In this document: positions 1,141 to 22,524 of the stretch, piece after piece
Numbering within the stretch: position 1 is the first letter of the stretch
How the letters are laid out: every line of letters starts with the position of its first letter
DNA from: a virus
IMG/VR virus record: IMGVR_UViG_3300045007_000300
Location: 1 to 28,683 of that record
Length of the DNA stretch: 28,683 bases
Strand: one strand, 5' to 3'
Notes under the pieces: generated by a model
What the model saw: the letters and a program-made list of their open reading frames with translations, nothing else
Databases searched by the model: none
What the model was told of the DNA's origin: nothing
Position numbers and translations under genes: made by a program

Positions 1141-1344
1141 GTGAAGATCCCGGCACAGCAATATCGCTGCCCTCTCGGCCGCCTGCAACCGCAGACCACC
1201 GACCTGGGAACCATCAAGCAAACCGGCTGGCGTGACCAGCACATCCTCGTGGTGTCCGAGGAGGACGCGCGGCTGGATTTCGTCGAGCGTGAATTCGTGC
1301 GGCGGATTGGAGAACGCCTGTACGGAGGGAAACGTCATGGCTGA
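1141..1344 (+). CDS. Small phage protein of unknown function
   Basis: A 67-residue protein with a GTG start preceded by an excellent AGGAGGT at 1129-1135, five bases upstream. The previous gene stops at 1139 and the next gene starts at 1337, inside this one, so the three are probably translated as a coupled set. I recognise no domain. The sequence is charged, with acidic and basic residues mixed in the second half (EEDARLDFVEREFVRRIGERL), suggesting a short amphipathic helix, and has no membrane segment or signal peptide. Its position between a resolvase and an HTH protein suggests a DNA-transaction or regulatory accessory role, but that is only context. Confidence 0.7.
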   Translation: MKIPAQQYRCPLGRLQPQTTDLGTIKQTGWRDQHILVVSEEDARLDFVEREFVRRIGERLYGGKRHG

Positions 1345-1735
1345 ATGGACGATGGATGACGTGGCGGCGCGGTTTGCCGAGGCTGCCGAGACGGGGCGGC
1401 GACTGCCTCCGGTCAGGGTGCAGGGTTACTTCAGCGTTTGGCCCGCCTTCGTGCGCAAGGAGTGGGAAGGCTTCGCCGACAAGGATTACGAGTACCGGCC
1501 ACTCCCGCCAACGCCAGAGGCCATTGACCGGATGCTGGAAGCGATGCGCTGGGTGCAATGGCTGGAGGAGGAGCAGCGCCACCTAATTTGGATGCGTGCC
1601 AAGCAACGCGAGTGGAAGGATATCTGTCGCCGCTTCGGATGCGACCGCACGACTGCGTGGCGGCGGTGGCAGAAGGCGTTGCAGGCGGTCGCCGACAGGC
1701 TCAACGAGCCAACTTGTCGCGCCGTAGCGTTTTGA
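1337..1735 (+). CDS. DUF6362-type phage HTH protein
   Basis: A 132-residue protein beginning MAEWTMDDVAARFAEAA, with the central PVRVQGYFSVWPAF that I associate with the DUF6362 family of phage proteins. The C-terminal third (DICRRFGCDRTTAWRRWQKA) reads as a helix-turn-helix with a basic recognition helix, so DNA binding is likely. GGAGGG lies just upstream of the ATG, and the start overlaps the previous gene by eight bases. Such proteins sit at the end of the early or replication region, just before the packaging region, a position that suits a late-gene regulator or a packaging-linked DNA-binding protein. The exact role is not established by the sequence. Confidence 0.75.
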   Translation: MAEWTMDDVAARFAEAAETGRRLPPVRVQGYFSVWPAFVRKEWEGFADKDYEYRPLPPTPEAIDRMLEAMRWVQWLEEEQRHLIWMRAKQREWKDICRRFGCDRTTAWRRWQKALQAVADRLNEPTCRAVAF

Positions 1736-3470: not shown

Positions 3471-4795
3471 GCATCTCCTGGCTTGCCGACAAGATCGAGC
3501 AGTGGCCGACCAACCGGCTCGTGCCCTATGCCCGGAACGCGCGCACCCATACCGAATCGCAGGTGGCGCAGATCGCAGCCTCGATTGCCGAGTTCGGTTT
3601 TACCAATCCGATCCTCGCCGGCAGTGACGGCGTGATCGTCGCCGGGCACGGACGGCTAGCCGCCGCACAGAAGCTCGGCATCGAAATCGTGCCGGTGGTG
3701 GTGCTCGACCACCTGACACCAACCCAGCGCCGGGCGCTGGTGATCGCGGACAACCGGATCGCCGAGAACGCCGGCTGGGACGAGGCGATGCTGCAGGTGG
3801 AATTGGCAGCCCTGCAGGATGACGACTTCGATCTGACCCTGACCGGCTTCGACGCCGATGCCCTGGCCGATCTACTCGCCGGCGGCGAGACGACCACCGA
3901 GGGGCAGACTGACGAGGATGCCGCCCCCGAGGTGCCGGAGACGCCGGTGTCACGACCGGGCGATGTCTGGATCTGCGGCGAGCACCGTGTGCTCTGCGGC
4001 GACGCCACCGATGCCGATGCCTACGCCACGGTGCTGGGCGACGAGTTGGCCGGCATGGTGTTCACCGACCCGCCCTACAACGTGAACTACGCCAACAGTG
4101 CGAAGGACAAGATGCGCGGCAAGAACCGCGCGATCCTCAATGACAATCTCGGCGAGGGTTTCTACGATTTCCTGCTGGCGGCACTGACGCCGACGCTGGC
4201 CCACTGTCGTGGCGGCATCTATGTAGCGATGTCCTCCAGCGAACTCGACACCCTGCAATCAGCCTTCCGGGCTGCCGGCGGCCACTGGTCGACGTTCATC
4301 ATCTGGGCGAAGAATACCTTCACCCTCGGGCGTGCCGATTATCAGCGCCAGTACGAGCCGATTCTTTACGGCTGGCCGGATGGTGGCGAGCGCCACTGGT
4401 GCGGCGACCGCGACCAGGGCGACGTCTGGCAGATCAAGAAACCGCAGAAGAACGATCTGCACCCGACGATGAAGCCGGTGGAACTGGTGGAGCGGGCGAT
4501 TCGGAATTCCAGTCGCCCGGGTGACGTGGTGCTCGACCCGTTCGGCGGATCCGGCAGCACACTGATCGCCGCCGAGAAGTCGGGACGGCGGGCGCGGCTC
4601 ATCGAACTCGACCCGAAGTACGTGGATGTGATCGTGCGCCGCTGGCAGGCATGGACAGATAGAAGTACAGTGCGTGAACAAGATGGCGTCGCCTTCGATG
4701 ACCTGCTGGTGAATGCCTTGCCCGTTCCTGCCACCTCGATTGATCACGATGGAGTCCATTGCCACCCAACGGTTGCACCGTCGCAAACGCGATGA
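3467..4795 (+). CDS. ParB-like domain/N6-adenine DNA methyltransferase fusion (second of a tandem pair)
   Basis: A 442-residue protein overlapping the previous stop by ATGA. It has the same architecture as its neighbour: an N-terminal ParB-like domain (VAGHGRLAAAQKL, VIADNRIAENAGW), then the near-identical linker pattern PVSRPGDVW and HRVLCGDA, then a methyltransferase. The catalytic motif is DPPY at 201-204, typical of N6-adenine enzymes, and LDPFGGSGST at 356-365 is the SAM-binding motif. The N-terminal halves of the two proteins align throughout while the catalytic halves have diverged, which indicates duplication followed by specialisation, probably to different target sites. The last ~40 residues after the methyltransferase fold are not recognisable. 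Confidence 0.87.
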   Translation: MSISWLADKIEQWPTNRLVPYARNARTHTESQVAQIAASIAEFGFTNPILAGSDGVIVAGHGRLAAAQKLGIEIVPVVVLDHLTPTQRRALVIADNRIAENAGWDEAMLQVELAALQDDDFDLTLTGFDADALADLLAGGETTTEGQTDEDAAPEVPETPVSRPGDVWICGEHRVLCGDATDADAYATVLGDELAGMVFTDPPYNVNYANSAKDKMRGKNRAILNDNLGEGFYDFLLAALTPTLAHCRGGIYVAMSSSELDTLQSAFRAAGGHWSTFIIWAKNTFTLGRADYQRQYEPILYGWPDGGERHWCGDRDQGDVWQIKKPQKNDLHPTMKPVELVERAIRNSSRPGDVVLDPFGGSGSTLIAAEKSGRRARLIELDPKYVDVIVRRWQAWTDRSTVREQDGVAFDDLLVNALPVPATSIDHDGVHCHPTVAPSQTR

Positions 4796-5123
4796 AGCCA
4801 TGATCGCTGCCCATGCGGCAGGCAAGACCTATGCGGAAATTGCGCGTGAGTTTGGGGTCAGCAGCAGCCTGGTGTCCCAGCGAATCCAGTACACCCTGCG
4901 CCAGCAGCAGATCGAGCAGAGCACGGATCCCTTCGAACGCATCCAGCCCCATACCGCACGCGTGCTGAAATTGGCAGGACTGGATACCGTCGAGCAGGTT
5001 CTGGAGAAGTATTTCGCCGAAGAACTTCTCCAAATACGTGGTTTCGGCAGCAAGGCACTGCGCGACGTGGAAAAGCACTTCCTGCCATTTCACTATCGCA
5101 ACTTCAAACGCAGCCCTCCGTAG
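4749..5123 (+). CDS. HTH protein fused to an RNA polymerase alpha-CTD-like helix-hairpin-helix domain
   Basis: A 124-residue protein in two parts. Residues about 10-50 form a helix-turn-helix of the sigma-70 region 4/resolvase kind (IAAHAAGKTYAEIAREFGVS, then SLVSQRIQ). The rest resembles the C-terminal domain of RNA polymerase alpha: a leucine-rich helix ending in LAGLDTVEQVLE, then LLQIRGFGSKALRDVEKHF, where the hairpin GFGSKAL matches the alpha-CTD pattern that binds DNA and activators. A role in late transcription, recruiting or mimicking host polymerase parts, is plausible but inferred. In-frame ATGs occur at 4713, 4749 and 4800, none with a strong ribosome site; 4749 is a compromise. 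The first part overlaps the methyltransferase gene, and the last 20 bases overlap the convergent gene on the other strand. Confidence 0.72.
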   Translation: MESIATQRLHRRKRDEAMIAAHAAGKTYAEIAREFGVSSSLVSQRIQYTLRQQQIEQSTDPFERIQPHTARVLKLAGLDTVEQVLEKYFAEELLQIRGFGSKALRDVEKHFLPFHYRNFKRSPP

Positions 5124-5475
5124 CATCGTCGACGATTTCGCAGTGAATCACAAAGCCCGTTAGGTAGGGCAGGCCCTTGGGGATGCCGTAGTCCTTGCTG
5201 GTCTGGCGGCCAATCGTCCAGCCCATCCACCGCGCTACTGCGGCATCGATGGCCTGCTTGATGTCGTGGCCCCGCAGCATCTCGTTCAGGACATCGTCGG
5301 CAAAGTGCCGCCCGTGGCGGCTGTCGAGGAAGGCCCTGACCGACTCGAGGGGCTGGTAGGTGGCGTCGGAGATCGCGGTCATCGCGATGGGCCAGGCGGC
5401 TTGGGCGTCGTTGTTCATCGTGCCCCAAAAGCCCCAGGCATCGTTTTGGGTTGCTGGGATGTTGTTGGTGGTCAT
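5104..5475 (-). CDS. Conserved small protein of unknown function
   Basis: A 123-residue protein read on the reverse strand, third and last of a co-oriented cassette. GAAGGAG lies seven bases upstream of the ATG at 5475, which decides the start; the frame stays open further upstream but without a ribosome site. I recognise no domain. Visible features are an Asn/Ala-rich N-terminus, a helical middle (FADDVLNEMLRG, IKQAIDAAVARWMGW) and a C-terminal part with IPKGLPYLTGFVI. It has no signal peptide and no membrane segment. The gene ends 20 bases inside the opposing HTH/alpha-CTD-like gene. It shares its leader repeat with the two upstream genes, so it is probably expressed under the same control. 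Confidence 0.72.
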   Translation of the reverse strand: MTTNNIPATQNDAWGFWGTMNNDAQAAWPIAMTAISDATYQPLESVRAFLDSRHGRHFADDVLNEMLRGHDIKQAIDAAVARWMGWTIGRQTSKDYGIPKGLPYLTGFVIHCEIVDDATEGCV

Positions 5476-5511
5476 CGTTTTCTCCTTCGGGTTGATCGTT
5501 GCGACACCCGT

Positions 5512-5542
5512 ATGAACGCGCTGTTCGATTGAGAAGCCAAGC
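5512..5542 (-). repeat. Leader repeat copy 1 (upstream of the gene starting at 5475)
   Basis: A 31-nt element also found at 6190-6220 and 6460-6490. All three keep ATGAACGCGCTGT at one end and GAAGCCAAGC at the other, with four or fewer differences between any pair. This copy ends 36 nt before the start codon of the reverse-strand gene. On the reverse strand it contains GAAC-AGCGC-GTTC, a possible small hairpin, and TTGGCT, which could be a -35 box, though no good -10 follows. Confidence 0.85.
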
Positions 5543-5562
5543 TCGTTCTGAATCATTTTTGG

Positions 5563-5586
5563 GGGGCGGCCAGATATCGCCGCCCC
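5563..5586 (-). other. Strong GC hairpin between two reverse-strand genes
   Basis: GGGGCGGC at 5563-5570 and GCCGCCCC at 5579-5586 form an 8-bp stem around an 8-nt loop. It lies just after the stop of the DUF3489 gene and before leader repeat copy 1. No U-run follows on either strand, so it is a weak terminator at best. It may instead protect the 3' end of the upstream transcript. Confidence 0.5.
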
Positions 5587-5594
5587 GTTGTTGA

Positions 5595-6155
5595 TCACGC
5601 AATTTTGTAGATGCGCTCGCCGCCTTCGGGCTTCTCCGAGGTGATGGTGAGTCCGAGTTTCTTCTTGAACGCGCCGGCAAAGGTGCCGCGCACCGTGTGC
5701 GCCTGCCAGCCGGTGGCCGCGCAGATCTGGTGGATGGTGGCCCCCTCCGGGCGCTGCAGCATCTGGATCACGGCGGCCTGCTTGCTGTTCTCGCGGGTGC
5801 GGGGCTTGCCCTCGACGCCGACCTTGAGCAGTCGCTTGGCCGCGTCCTGTTTTTCTTGCTCCCCGTCTTTTGCCCATTGGGCCTCTGCGGCCGACACGGC
5901 GGCCTCGACCTCGGGGTCGGGGTGAAGGGGAGCCGGCGTCGGCCGGGCGCGCCCCAGGGCGTCGTAGCCCTCGGCGGCGACGAACCAGTCGGTGCTGTCG
6001 CGGGTGATCAGGGCTCGATTGAAAAGGCCCTCCAGCACCTTGGTGCGGGCACCGCCCTTGATGTTGTCGGGGATCCATTCGATCTTGCCGCCAGTGTGTT
6101 CGATGGCGTAGGCGAGGATGGCGTGCTGGGCCGGGGTCAGTTGGATGGTGGTCAT
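5595..6155 (-). CDS. DUF3489 family protein
   Basis: A 186-residue reverse-strand protein. The N-terminal 60 residues (LTPAQHAILAYAIEHTGG, then KVLEGLFNRALIT) look like a small winged-helix domain. The middle is a charged Ala/Glu-rich linker. The last 65 residues (SKQAAVIQMLQRPEGATIHQ, GWQAHTVRGTFAGAFKKKLG) match the DUF3489 pattern, a second winged helix expected to bind DNA. Proteins of this family are common on plasmids, integrative elements and phages of Proteobacteria, with no firm function. AAGGAG lies six bases upstream of ATG 6155 and sets the start, although the reading frame remains open for another ~970 bases upstream. The likely role is a regulator, possibly of this cassette. Confidence 0.85.
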   Translation of the reverse strand: MTTIQLTPAQHAILAYAIEHTGGKIEWIPDNIKGGARTKVLEGLFNRALITRDSTDWFVAAEGYDALGRARPTPAPLHPDPEVEAAVSAAEAQWAKDGEQEKQDAAKRLLKVGVEGKPRTRENSKQAAVIQMLQRPEGATIHQICAATGWQAHTVRGTFAGAFKKKLGLTITSEKPEGGERIYKIA

Positions 6156-6189
6156 TTGATGCTCCTTCGTGGTGGTTGATGGTGTGGTC

Positions 6190-6220
6190 ATGAACGCGCT
6201 GTTCGAGAGTGAAGCCAAGC
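6190..6220 (-). repeat. Leader repeat copy 2 (upstream of the DUF3489 gene)
   Basis: Second copy of the 31-nt element, differing from copy 1 at three positions and from copy 3 at three. It ends 34 nt before the DUF3489 start. The similarity continues toward the gene: the leader between repeat and ribosome site shares ACCATCAAC with copy 3. An A-run lies on the far side (reverse strand), as with the other copies. Confidence 0.85.
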
Positions 6221-6235
6221 GCTTTACGCTTTTTT

Positions 6236-6424
6236 TCAGCCCTGCTTCGCGGCCTGCCGGCCCGCCTCGTAGGCGGCTATCAGGGCGCTCTTGACGCCCC
6301 AGACGCTGACCTCGTGGAAGTCCATCCGGTCGCTGTTGCGGGTTTCCAGGGTTTCGATGAACAGGTGGTCCAGCGCGATCTGCTGGAGCAGGGTTTCGAG
6401 GGCTTTGTCGGTTTGCTTGCTCAT
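6236..6424 (-). CDS. DUF6900 family small protein
   Basis: A 62-residue reverse-strand protein with LLQQIALDHLFIETLETRNS and DFHEVSVWGVKSALIAAYEAG, the conserved blocks I associate with DUF6900. It is all-helical in appearance, without signal peptide or membrane segment. AAGGAG lies six bases before ATG 6424. It is the first gene of the reverse cassette and faces away from the small terminase gene, whose start is 106 bases away. Function unknown; the family is found on mobile elements together with DUF3489 proteins. Confidence 0.8.
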   Translation of the reverse strand: MSKQTDKALETLLQQIALDHLFIETLETRNSDRMDFHEVSVWGVKSALIAAYEAGRQAAKQG

Positions 6425-6459
6425 GTGCGTCTCCTTGTGGCGTCGTTGATGGTGATGGC

Positions 6460-6490
6460 ATGAACGCGCTGTCCCAGAGAGAAGCCAAGC
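6460..6490 (-). repeat. Leader repeat copy 3 (upstream of the DUF6900 gene)
   Basis: Third copy of the 31-nt element, 35 nt before the DUF6900 start. It differs from copy 1 at four positions. In the possible small hairpin (reverse strand) GAAC becomes GGAC, which still pairs with GTTC through a G-U wobble, so the changes do not break the fold. Confidence 0.85.
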
Positions 6491-6530
6491 TGATTTTTAG
6501 GAAATCACGAACAAATGATTGAAGGTGCTC

Positions 6531-7067
6531 ATGGGACTCTCGATTCGCGCCTATGCGCGCCACCGGGGCGTTTCCGACGCGGCGGTGCGCAAGGCCATCG
6601 CGGCGGGTCGGATCACCCCGGAGGCTGACGGCACGCTGGATGCCGAACGGATTGACGCCGAGTGGGCGCGCAATACCGAAGCGCCCCGTAACGGCACGCG
6701 TGCCAAACCGGTGCGCGTGGCCGTACCGACGGAACCTGCATCGGCAGGCGACAGCCAAGCTGTGCTGCCCGCAGGCGGTACATCCCTGCTGCAGGCCCGC
6801 ACCGTCAACGAGGTGGTCAAGGCGCAGACCAACAAGGTGCGTCTGGCCCGCCTCAAGGGCGAACTGGTCGACCGGCCCCAGGCCATCGCCCACGTATTCA
6901 AGCTGGCGCGGGCCGAGCGGGATGCCTGGCTCAACTGGCCGGCGCGCATCTCGGCGCAGATGGCGGCGAAGCTCGGCGTCGATGTCCACACCCTGCACGT
7001 CGCGCTGGAGACCGCCGTGCGCGAACACTTGCAGGAGTTGGGCGATGTTCGCCCGAGGGTGGACTGA
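6531..7067 (+). CDS. Terminase small subunit
   Basis: A 178-residue protein directly before the large terminase, which it overlaps by TGATG. The N-terminus (SIRAYARHRGVSDAAVRKAI) is the winged HTH typical of Nu1-like small terminases that bind the phage packaging site. The middle is a Pro/Ala-rich linker. The C-terminal third, with ARTVNEVVKAQTNKVRLARL, REHLQEL and several Leu/Arg helices, is expected to contact the large subunit and form the oligomer. GAAGG five bases upstream supports ATG 6531 over the in-frame TTG at 6519. This is the first gene of the long forward morphogenesis operon; the palindrome cluster at 1946-1983 is a possible binding site. Confidence 0.88.
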   Translation: MGLSIRAYARHRGVSDAAVRKAIAAGRITPEADGTLDAERIDAEWARNTEAPRNGTRAKPVRVAVPTEPASAGDSQAVLPAGGTSLLQARTVNEVVKAQTNKVRLARLKGELVDRPQAIAHVFKLARAERDAWLNWPARISAQMAAKLGVDVHTLHVALETAVREHLQELGDVRPRVD

Positions 7068-20143: not shown

Positions 20144-22524
20144 TGAAGGCGTCACTGCCCATCGAATTCTTCACCTGCACCTGGCAGAGCGCGCAGGACG
20201 AAGTGCGCCAGCAGCGTGACTGCGACTGGTGGATCTACGACTGGCCGAACGTGGATTTCTACTGGCTGTTCGGCAACAACTACTGGTGGATTCAGCCGCA
20301 GCCGGATCACAGTCCGCTGGCGCGTCGCTACTACGATCAGGTCGTCAGCGATCTCAACAACGCCACGAGTCAGGCGTACAGCCAGTGCGAGAGTCGTCAC
20401 TACGCATCGCAGTCGGAACCGGAGCCCGGCCTGCGTCTCACTGTTTCCAGCCGCCTCGACCGGGGTGCGGCGATACGCGGTAGCAGCACCGAGTCCAGCG
20501 GCATCGAGGCCCGGCTGTCCGTACCATTCGCGGGCGGGACGACCCCGCCGCCGCCCACGCCCTGTCCGATGCTGCGGCGCGAGCTCTTCGCTAGGCCGGT
20601 CGACTTCAACTACGTGCTGCATGGGCCAGGGGGCGGCAACTTCCGCTGGGAGTGGCGGGATCAGCAGGCCGTGACGCCTGACCCGTATTTCGAGCTTTAC
20701 GGTCGTACCCTGAAATTCTCCGGTAGCAGCGGCTCGCAGTTCCTCGGCAGCCTGCATCTCATCATCGACCGGGTCGCCGATCTGTGGGTGCGCTTCGAGT
20801 CTCGACCGATTCCGGCAACCGTCGCGGATCGGGTCGATCCAGCCCAGCCGCTCTCCTATCAGGTCAGCACCGGCGGCGGCTACTTCGGCATCGCGGCCGT
20901 GATCGAAGTGCTGCACGTCGAGTCGGGCCAGATCTGGTACCAGAGCGTGCACGGCTCGAACTACTCGCCCGGTCAGATGACCACGTACAGCTGGTGGCCG
21001 AGTGGCTGGGAACAGATGTCGATGGACGCCAACGGCATCATCCGGCACTACAACGTGGACTGGTTCTACTGGTTCAACACCATCGACCCTGCCAGCATCG
21101 GGCTGCCGACAACCGGCACCTACCGGATGCGCTACATCCTGCTGGCCTACGGCTACCAGACCTACAGCCGCTCGGTGAGCAGCAACGCGCTGGGCCTCTC
21201 CGGCGATACGCGGATGTCGTGGAAATCGATCTGGCTCTCGCACATGCCGTCGCTGATCAGCTACACGCCCGGGATGACCGACGGCATCATCCCCCCGTTC
21301 GAGGTGACCTACACGCGCAGTCCGGTGCTCTATCCGTGGCCGGCGAACGGAACCGGCATCCTGTTCGATGCCGTGTTCGACATGAAGAACATCACCACCT
21401 TCCGCTTCGTGATCAAGGTGGGCAACACTTTCGATTTTGCCGTCGGACTGGTGGTGCAAGCCTCGGGCTGGCAGGCGTGGGTGCATCTGGAGCCGGGCGA
21501 GATGAAATACCTGGCCGGCGGCGTGTCGATTTCCGGGATGGCGAACTGGAATGCCTACCCGCTGCATCCGCAGTCGCCGAATTACGGGTGGCAAGGCAAC
21601 TGGGGCAGCAGCTACATTTCGATGTACAACGGCCAGTGCTCGATCTCGTTCAGCCTGTTCCTGACCGCGCCCGATAATCCGGAAACGACGCCGGCCAACC
21701 TACCGGCAAAGCGGGCGACGCAGCGCTGGTATTGGGACCTGGCGAGTTTCGGCCCGCAGTACGAACCGGAGTGGGGCGCGATCAAGAAATACGCCCCGGA
21801 CGGGCGTTACGACTACGAGTACGTGCTCCAGCAATACAACCTGAATGCGGTGGCGATCACGAGCATCAACCGTTCGATCACCAAGCCAAGCTACCAGCCG
21901 CTGATCAATCCGGCCACCTACTTCGTGACCGGCTACCAGACCGTGCTCTACGACTGGAGCAGCCCGTGGCACAAGCGCCCTTGGCCGGGCTACTCGGGGT
22001 GGGGCAGCCTCTCCGCGCCGATCATGATCAACGGCGAACGCCTCACCTGGAACGGATCCCAAAACGTCTGGGTGCCGGTGGAGGCGGTGTCGATTTCGCT
22101 CACCCGCACGATGATGCAGCAGGTGGCGGCAATGCTCGGTGTCGTCGAATACGTGGTGATGGATGGCGATGACATTCGCTGGTTCGTGCCGGTCACCTAC
22201 AGCCCACCGACCTATCCCGAGTCGTTCTCGAACGTCTTGTGGATCGACCGCTTCTACACGCGGGGCGGGGCGCTGATCGACGACGCGGCGATGCGATCCG
22301 CCTTCCAGACGGTGATTGCCAACAACGCCGCCAGTTGGTCGAACTACCGGAACATCGTCATCCATCCTTCTGTGCGCTTCGGCAGTTTCCTCGACAACGG
22401 CGGTTTCGAGGTGGGCGACTACCTGCTGGGGCCGAACGGCGACATGGTCGAGGTGGGAAGCCTCGCCGCGCTCAGTTCAGTCAGCACGCGCTTCCTCTAC
22501 TACATCAAGCCCGAGTTCCGGTAG
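20143..22524 (+). CDS. Large tryptophan-rich tail-tip protein, family not recognised
   Basis: A 793-residue protein directly after the tape measure (TGATG overlap). I recognise no domain. It is exceptional in composition: about 36 Trp by hand count (some 4.5 percent) and very many Tyr, often in clusters such as CDWWIYDWPNVDFYW and NNYWWIQP near the N-terminus, and NVDWFYWFN in the middle. A Pro-rich linker (TTPPPPTPCP, about residue 140) separates an N-terminal part from a long beta-rich body. The C-terminal part has FLDNGGFEVGDYLLGPNGDM. There is no signal peptide. The position is that of distal tail or tip proteins, so it probably belongs to the tail tip and could be a receptor- or carbohydrate-binding part. 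GTG 20140 is an alternative start. Confidence 0.8.
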   Translation: MKASLPIEFFTCTWQSAQDEVRQQRDCDWWIYDWPNVDFYWLFGNNYWWIQPQPDHSPLARRYYDQVVSDLNNATSQAYSQCESRHYASQSEPEPGLRLTVSSRLDRGAAIRGSSTESSGIEARLSVPFAGGTTPPPPTPCPMLRRELFARPVDFNYVLHGPGGGNFRWEWRDQQAVTPDPYFELYGRTLKFSGSSGSQFLGSLHLIIDRVADLWVRFESRPIPATVADRVDPAQPLSYQVSTGGGYFGIAAVIEVLHVESGQIWYQSVHGSNYSPGQMTTYSWWPSGWEQMSMDANGIIRHYNVDWFYWFNTIDPASIGLPTTGTYRMRYILLAYGYQTYSRSVSSNALGLSGDTRMSWKSIWLSHMPSLISYTPGMTDGIIPPFEVTYTRSPVLYPWPANGTGILFDAVFDMKNITTFRFVIKVGNTFDFAVGLVVQASGWQAWVHLEPGEMKYLAGGVSISGMANWNAYPLHPQSPNYGWQGNWGSSYISMYNGQCSISFSLFLTAPDNPETTPANLPAKRATQRWYWDLASFGPQYEPEWGAIKKYAPDGRYDYEYVLQQYNLNAVAITSINRSITKPSYQPLINPATYFVTGYQTVLYDWSSPWHKRPWPGYSGWGSLSAPIMINGERLTWNGSQNVWVPVEAVSISLTRTMMQQVAAMLGVVEYVVMDGDDIRWFVPVTYSPPTYPESFSNVLWIDRFYTRGGALIDDAAMRSAFQTVIANNAASWSNYRNIVIHPSVRFGSFLDNGGFEVGDYLLGPNGDMVEVGSLAALSSVSTRFLYYIKPEFR

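Follow-up and report, generated by a model that had tools for sequence, protein, structure and literature searches.

Judging from sequence, the 31-nt element described here is probably a phage-specific promoter, of which one copy would serve each transcription unit and which would be reused by unrelated small accessory (moron-like) genes. The window, that is, the whole 28.7-kb stretch of DNA that was analysed, is a phage record with terminase, portal and tape-measure genes. Three leftward genes form a small island between methylase-like genes and the terminase, namely, a DUF6900 gene (6236..6424, minus strand; 62 aa; PF21841, E 1.7e-26), a DUF3489 gene (5595..6155, minus strand; 186 aa; PF11994, E 6.5e-33), and a gene of unknown function of family phrog_8020 (5104..5475, minus strand; 123 aa; 75% identity to Gp28 of the published phage AcaML1). 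The two methylase-like genes of the window are likewise 62% and 80% identical to the AcaML1 DNA methylases Gp24 and Gp25, respectively.

Each island gene is preceded, on the minus strand, by one copy of the element. First, copy A (5512..5542), before the phrog_8020 gene, ends 36 nt from the ATG, with a -35-like TTGGCT at 5540-5535, a -10-like GTTCAT at 5517-5512 and a predicted transcription start around 5505. Second, copy B (6190..6220), before the DUF3489 gene, ends 34 nt from the ATG, with TTGGCT at 6218-6213, GTTCAT at 6195-6190 and a predicted start around 6183. Third, copy C (6460..6490), before the DUF6900 gene, ends 35 nt from the ATG, with TTGGCT at 6488-6483, GTTCAT at 6465-6460 and a predicted start around 6453. 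This fixed spacing, the near identity of the copies (28, 27 and 28 of 31 positions in pairwise comparison) and the lack of relationship between the genes, whose proteins belong to the separate families phrog_8020, DUF3489 and DUF6900, had all been proposed in a sequence-only reading of the window, and all of them hold. The same reading saw the similarity running on into the leader; copies B and C have ACCATCAAC in common, and copy A reads CGATCAACCCGAAGGAG. The next best agreement anywhere in the window is at 20 of 31 positions for the minus strand and at 21 for the plus strand. The core pattern, present three times in the window, is found in none of 100 shuffles.

Spread of the element

A search for the element in relatives, at its fixed distance to start codons, had been proposed as a check, and the element does recur. 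Written as GCTTGGCTTC-N6-GAACAGCGCGTTCAT, the motif is present in 629 distinct copies in 317 loci, and thus the window copies are not due to chance. A copy was counted when at least 20 of the 25 fixed letters agreed, and copies identical over the element and the next 60 nt were counted once. The loci comprise at least 119 viral stretches and at least 117 stretches of bacterial genomes, both found with exact patterns, 79 loci reached through DUF3489, the window and its copy. Since the viral and genome loci are a sample picked by exact patterns, the invariance of the pattern letters, including the T at -11 discussed below, is partly selected. All 317 loci hold at least one copy, including every one of the 79 fetched through DUF3489 (L121-L199). 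A start codon follows 33-37 nt downstream in 464 of the 572 copies with a clear gene; the remaining 57 of the 629, which include contig ends, GTG starts and small ORFs, among others, are not followed within 120 nt by an ATG gene that has a ribosome site.

The N6 gap is constant. Other gap lengths gave scattered near-noise matches, with one exception at 23 of 25 letters, once shifted sites were set aside, and the exact pattern with one extra base was found in 0 of 40 records. With the correct gap, all 49 records chosen for the element or for DUF3489 have one to six copies each, and the reversed control has none. The same geometry is observed in loci that were not selected by the motif. Relatives of DUF3489 were fetched by protein, and in 71 of the 79 loci with enough upstream sequence the element lies before the DUF3489 start, with a gap of 6 in all 71. 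These copies agree at 25 letters in 51 cases, at 24 in 19 and at 23 in one, and AGCGCGTT is retained in every one of them (71/71); in the other eight loci, another gene ends just upstream.

Host titles, among the matches listed, are mostly those of beta- and gammaproteobacteria, and also include Nitrospira defluvii, Geobacter and metagenome-assembled genomes (MAGs) titled Alphaproteobacteria, Elioraea and Chloroflexi; the Acidithiobacillus phage AcaML1 has three copies. What surrounds the element in bacterial genomes is phage-like. At least one island, methylase-like, terminase or portal gene was found in 87 of the 117 genome loci, in the pieces examined and among the matches listed, and the N. 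defluvii locus (L223) combines the island with methylase-like, terminase and portal genes. In each of seven host genomes that were picked because they carry the element, the copies all lie on one contig and within 35 kb. Across the family of one host, 71 copies were found in 24 of 299 genomes, with none in the reversed control, and across the phylum of N. defluvii the element is present in two of 198 genomes, one of them N. defluvii itself. The absence of any copy from 275 of the 299 host-family genomes makes a host regulon unlikely, and the element looks like a phage signal without one.

Putative transcription units and anatomy of the proposed promoter

The genes that follow the 572 copies fall into 35 clusters, 20 of which have at least two members. 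Ten cluster representatives were scanned, which gave one Pfam match (DUF2924) and four PHROG matches, the latter all without known function. For 17 gene clusters, the element lies directly upstream in 598 of 645 occurrences, when counted at 19 or more of 25 letters and omitting occurrences less than 400 nt from a contig start and identical contexts. Among the other 47 occurrences, 41 abut an upstream gene that has the element, and six show neither arrangement. These loci were partly chosen by the motif; the exceptions were not so chosen, and 41 of the 47 still obey the rule. In the loci compared, the element marks putative transcription units, not single genes. This position is promoter-like, as a translation signal would be expected with each gene. 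The element also offers a sequence handle on these uncharacterised small phage genes, since any gene that follows it can be counted among them regardless of its own sequence.

The likeness of the N6 spacer is 0.50 within a gene family across loci versus 0.34 between families in one locus, and that of the fixed letters is 0.94 and 0.92, respectively. This contrast implies that the fixed letters are held by selection and not by homogenisation, and gene conversion as the cause of the conservation is accordingly unsupported. The dependence of spacer likeness on the family indicates that gene and promoter tend to travel together.

To describe the anatomy of the element we built a family-weighted logo from 215 non-redundant copies of 569, representing the 35 clusters, and numbered it from the predicted start. 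A-rich stretches (A at 0.38-0.55 versus 0.20) lie at about -65 to -61, -54 to -51 and -44 to -40, with the spacing of one helical turn known from UP elements; besides these tracts, the 40 nt upstream of the element are little conserved. Within the element, TTGGCTT occupies -35 to -29 and ACAGCGC-GTTCAT occupies -19 to -7. The start region has C or T at -1, a purine at +1 (81%) and a pyrimidine at +2 (95%). The fixed spacing, the unit-head rule, the UP-like A-tracts and the initiator-like start together support the promoter or operator part of the sequence-only reading, which had seen a shared cis element over a small regulon; its two other parts, a structured leader RNA and control through DUF3489, fared worse, as detailed below. 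A point against a promoter is the start-codon distance, which is kept within narrower limits than most promoters would require.

As a promoter, the logo reads TTGGCT-17 bp-GTTCAT, which fits the -35 hexamer in part and the -10 hexamer poorly. A T is found at -11 in 98% of the 215 weighted copies and in 623 of the 629 copies, and an AGCGC block at -17 to -13 is nearly invariant (609 of 629). A TATAAT-like -10 of the housekeeping sigma-70 type, with A at -11, was thus not found in the element, and a sigma-70 scan of positions 5000-6700 picked up none of the three copies; the single site it lists is on the plus strand. Nor is the element known to fit sigma-54, sigma-32, sigma-E, EcfG or T7-type promoters. 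Because of the poor -10, with T in place of A-11, and the near-invariant AGCGC, help from a phage-encoded factor seems quite possible, short of probable.

A strongly conserved moron promoter read by the ordinary host sigma-70, for which no phage factor would be needed, is a variant of the promoter reading that we consider possible yet rather unlikely. It would account for the TTG at -35, the 17-bp gap and the phased A-tracts, for the presence of the element in hosts of more than one phylum, and for variants from Eleftheria that, aligned by eye, are only TTG-like at -35. It does not account for T-11 and AGCGC, which depart from the sigma-70 consensus in almost all copies, nor for the 275 host-family genomes without a copy.

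The imperfect palindrome GAAC-N5-GTTC over the -10 region, together with the invariant spacing, could reflect an operator through which a phage repressor silences the small genes during the prophage state, their release leading to coordinated expression upon induction. This would be compatible with a promoter, but we regard it as clearly unlikely, since one half of the palindrome is better conserved than the other and the two vary independently. LexA-type operators have the form GAAC-Nx-GTTC with two equally conserved half-sites; such an operator was rejected, as the outer pair is intact in 417 of 629 copies and GAAC is more variable than GTT.

The same letters had suggested, in the sequence-only reading, a hairpin between GAAC and GTTC in a leader RNA. 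The lone change in the arm that preserves pairing through G-U does exist (copy C, GGAC), and it is not borne out in the other copies. The outer pair is standard in 417 of the 629, the next pairs in 559, 602 and 585, and over all four pairs just one cell is changed on both sides. The 31-nt element folds no better than its shuffles, with a mean z-score of +0.45 (80 sampled copies), and of -0.23 with the leader. In comparison with Rfam, no match was found in the window at the gathering score and none at E up to 1 within 5450-6540. On covariation, folding and Rfam, the hairpin was rejected.

A broader form of this idea, namely, a leader RNA that is structured or bound by a protein, starts upstream of the element and controls translation or attenuation, strikes us as improbable. 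The tight distance to the start codon agrees with it, and protein binding to unstructured RNA is compatible with the sequence. In addition, 40 nt upstream plus the element fold with a mean z of -0.67, and z is below -2 in 24% of 80 copies. This signal goes with an inverted repeat, GAAGCCAAGC, which lies just upstream with 9 or 10 of its 10 letters in 121 of 627 copies versus one of 627 shuffles, and which could pair with the 5' part of the element, GCTTGGCTTC. The repeat is common in some gene families only, and at eight or more letters its loops are mostly of 3 or 7 nt. Uncompensated variation of the arms, the z-scores of the element and its leader and the lack of an Rfam match all speak against such an RNA. 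So does the observation that the element stays with the first gene when another gene is second in the unit, and, as the 40 nt upstream show little conservation besides the A-tracts, there is no sign of another promoter there.

A leader peptide, in the frame TTG-GCT-TCN, was also ruled out, as an in-frame stop is present in the spacer of some copies, for example TTGGCTTCCTGATTG, and start distances of 34, 35 and 36 nt are about equally common (138, 115 and 145).

Returning to the promoter, its working may be pictured as follows. RNA polymerase would be held at -35 by TTGGCTT and farther upstream by the A-tracts around -63, -52 and -42, and transcription would start about 7 nt past the element. 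The resulting leader would be of some 28-30 nt and would contain the Shine-Dalgarno site. The promoter would have a phage-encoded partner, most likely the sigma-region-4-like DUF6362 protein.

Candidate phage-encoded factors

The DUF6362 gene of the window (1337..1735, plus strand; 132 aa) lies between a RuvC-like gene and the methylase-like genes. Its product matches PF19889 (E 1.1e-41), and its C-terminal half resembles sigma region 4, as judged from weak Pfam and PHROGs matches (Sigma70_r4_2, E 0.0011, under the cut-off). The solved structures closest to a model of the protein (mean pLDDT 75.8) are mostly sigma factors, with Foldseek E values of 0.39 and above. The weak matches are to what we take to be sigma-region-4-like late regulators of the RinA, ArpU and Q-like kinds. 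DUF6362 is similar to these in being a small phage protein with a -35-binding-like domain, encoded beside a RuvC-like gene, a likeness predicted from sequence that leaves its membership putative.

DUF6362 is present in 41 of the 49 records with the element versus two of 21 related records without it, the latter being 20 loci hand-picked from 80 fetched by DUF3489 plus RcDormio. Among the eight element records without DUF6362, three (G022, G029 and G034) end before its place and two (G041 and G042) are 24-kb records. AcaML1, G045 and G046 have exact elements and no DUF6362, and are true exceptions. At the corresponding place, AcaML1 and G045 encode Gp20 and G046 a relative of it; a relationship of AcaML1 Gp20 to DUF6362 is not supported (hhalign probability 2.5%). 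Conversely, RcDormio and G563 have DUF6362 and lack the element. From the DUF6362 side, 32 of 68 loci, namely those with 6 kb downstream, could be used: elements are present in 30 of these, lying in the island in 29 and solely on the opposite side of DUF6362 in one (L359), and are absent from two (L338 and L389). DUF6362 is thus the best, imperfect candidate for the acting factor, and we propose it tentatively. Its association with the element may reflect common descent alone, and the records are not a random draw.

The sequence-only reading had named the DUF3489 protein as a possible regulator, which would bind the element before its own gene and the others. This protein has a C-terminal domain that is helix-turn-helix-like (HTH_23 match under its cut-off), it is encoded in 47 of the 49 element records, the other two being the 24-kb records, and its gene is itself behind the element in 71 of 79 loci. 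It is also absent from RcDormio, which has no element. These points are outweighed by a set of 80 loci, also fetched by DUF3489, that are all without the element (none reaches 20 of 25 letters, the best having 19), and by the helix-turn-helix stretch, which is much alike in the groups with and without it. Control through DUF3489 is therefore weakened, and we hold it to be very doubtful. Another protein of the window (4713-5123, plus strand) shows weak matches to Sigma70_r4 and to the RNA polymerase alpha-CTD, an unusual combination that few relatives have. As the factor it was rejected, since only five of 318 loci match, three of these being the window sequence or an identical one.

A shared element before unrelated small genes suggests a coordinated set under a viral factor, and whether prophage accessory genes act as one regulon or one by one is now testable. 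The element is, moreover, a candidate portable promoter, whose factor could be searched for by simple reporter tests. It is tempting to speculate, as a conjecture more likely wrong than right, that these phages would be a lineage that crosses phyla with an initiation code of its own. Such a code would consist of a -10 class other than that of sigma-70, read only together with a sigma-4-like phage partner (DUF6362 or its replacement at the same place), and would turn on a modular accessory set of gene-plus-promoter cassettes.

Related systems and diverged copies

Repeated promoter motifs are a known kind of phage signal; the element studied here differs in its letters, its constant gap, the missing start-associated sequence (SAS) and its occurrence across phyla. 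The closest known kind are the extended start-associated sequences (ESAS) of cluster K mycobacteriophages, short motifs repeated before unrelated genes. They consist of imperfect inverted repeats of 15-17 bp whose gap varies, and are found at about half of the genes that have the 13-bp SAS at the ribosome site (PMC3203893, PMC12699233, PMC11373665). In 2024 they were interpreted as SigA-like promoters whose hexamers lie 17-18 bp apart, and their role was still called unclear (PMC3203893, PMC12699233, PMC11373665). Like ESAS as described there, our element is a short motif repeated before several unrelated genes of one phage, mostly in one orientation. Unlike ESAS, it has its own sequence, a fixed 6-nt gap and no SAS, and is spread over more than one bacterial phylum. 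For 628 of the 629 copies the 70 nt that follow were scored against the SAS, GGGATAGGAGCCC; the highest score is 10 of 13 letters, and 605 copies have eight or fewer. The inverted repeat near our element, GAAGCCAAGC, is another than that of ESAS and is confined to the 121 of 627 copies given above.

Lambdoid moron genes are accessory genes with their own promoter, outside the main operons and opposite to their neighbours. The genes studied here are alike in these respects, and differ in that one conserved sequence serves at least 17 gene families, whereas the promoters of lambdoid morons are generally individual. In phages P2 and Mu, the late promoters have a common site for one phage activator, Ogr and C, respectively, and the targets are virion operons. 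Several phage promoters sharing one site is the point of likeness, and another sequence, another position and small accessory genes as targets are the differences. In the open-access literature searched, we found no description of the element, nothing specific on repeated phage promoters or morons, and no mention of DUF6362 by name; DUF3489 is named in one paper. The element letters gave, among the matches listed, only the short and unspecific CTTGGCTTC, with none of these matches on phage promoters.

Sequences that resemble diverged elements were seen in several places. On an Eleftheria terrae plasmid (L415), the four island genes of a prophage-like region each have a diverged element, in which, aligned by eye, a TTG-like -35 and, after 17-18 nt, GCGTTCAT or GCGTGAAT are the only parts retained. 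Translations of G020 at 29000-35000 (L322) suggest a row of diverged copies, reading for example GCGTACAT, which would be useful for finding the truly invariant letters. In RcDormio (L395, 955-2003), the genes flanked by a ParB-like gene and the terminase point leftward and lack the element, and appear, by eye, to have a more ordinary AT-rich promoter upstream.

The element also corrects gene starts in AcaML1. A phrog_57 (terminase small subunit) match in this phage is Gp23, and Gp33, annotated as 'terminase small subunit' (L317 5443-5904 and 5713; record 22018-22479), appears to be the antisense shadow of a missed DUF6900-like gene, which has the element 34 nt upstream. Gp30 has been annotated with a start that precedes its element, and the frame of Gp29 runs across another copy.

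Finally, in some phages one more copy lies at a distance of 20-35 kb from the island. In G012, G016, G036, G037 and G005 this second-place copy precedes proteins that begin similarly (cluster 6 or like it), cluster 6 being a small family found after a lone element far from the island, for example in L319, L321 and L323. The second copy of G012 lies about 20 nt after a lysozyme-like gene, which is a classical position for a moron. Two loci (L214 and L252) have copies with no clear gene behind them, the one in N. defluvii about 34 kb from its island; the downstream sequence is similar in both and possibly contains a small ORF or RNA.
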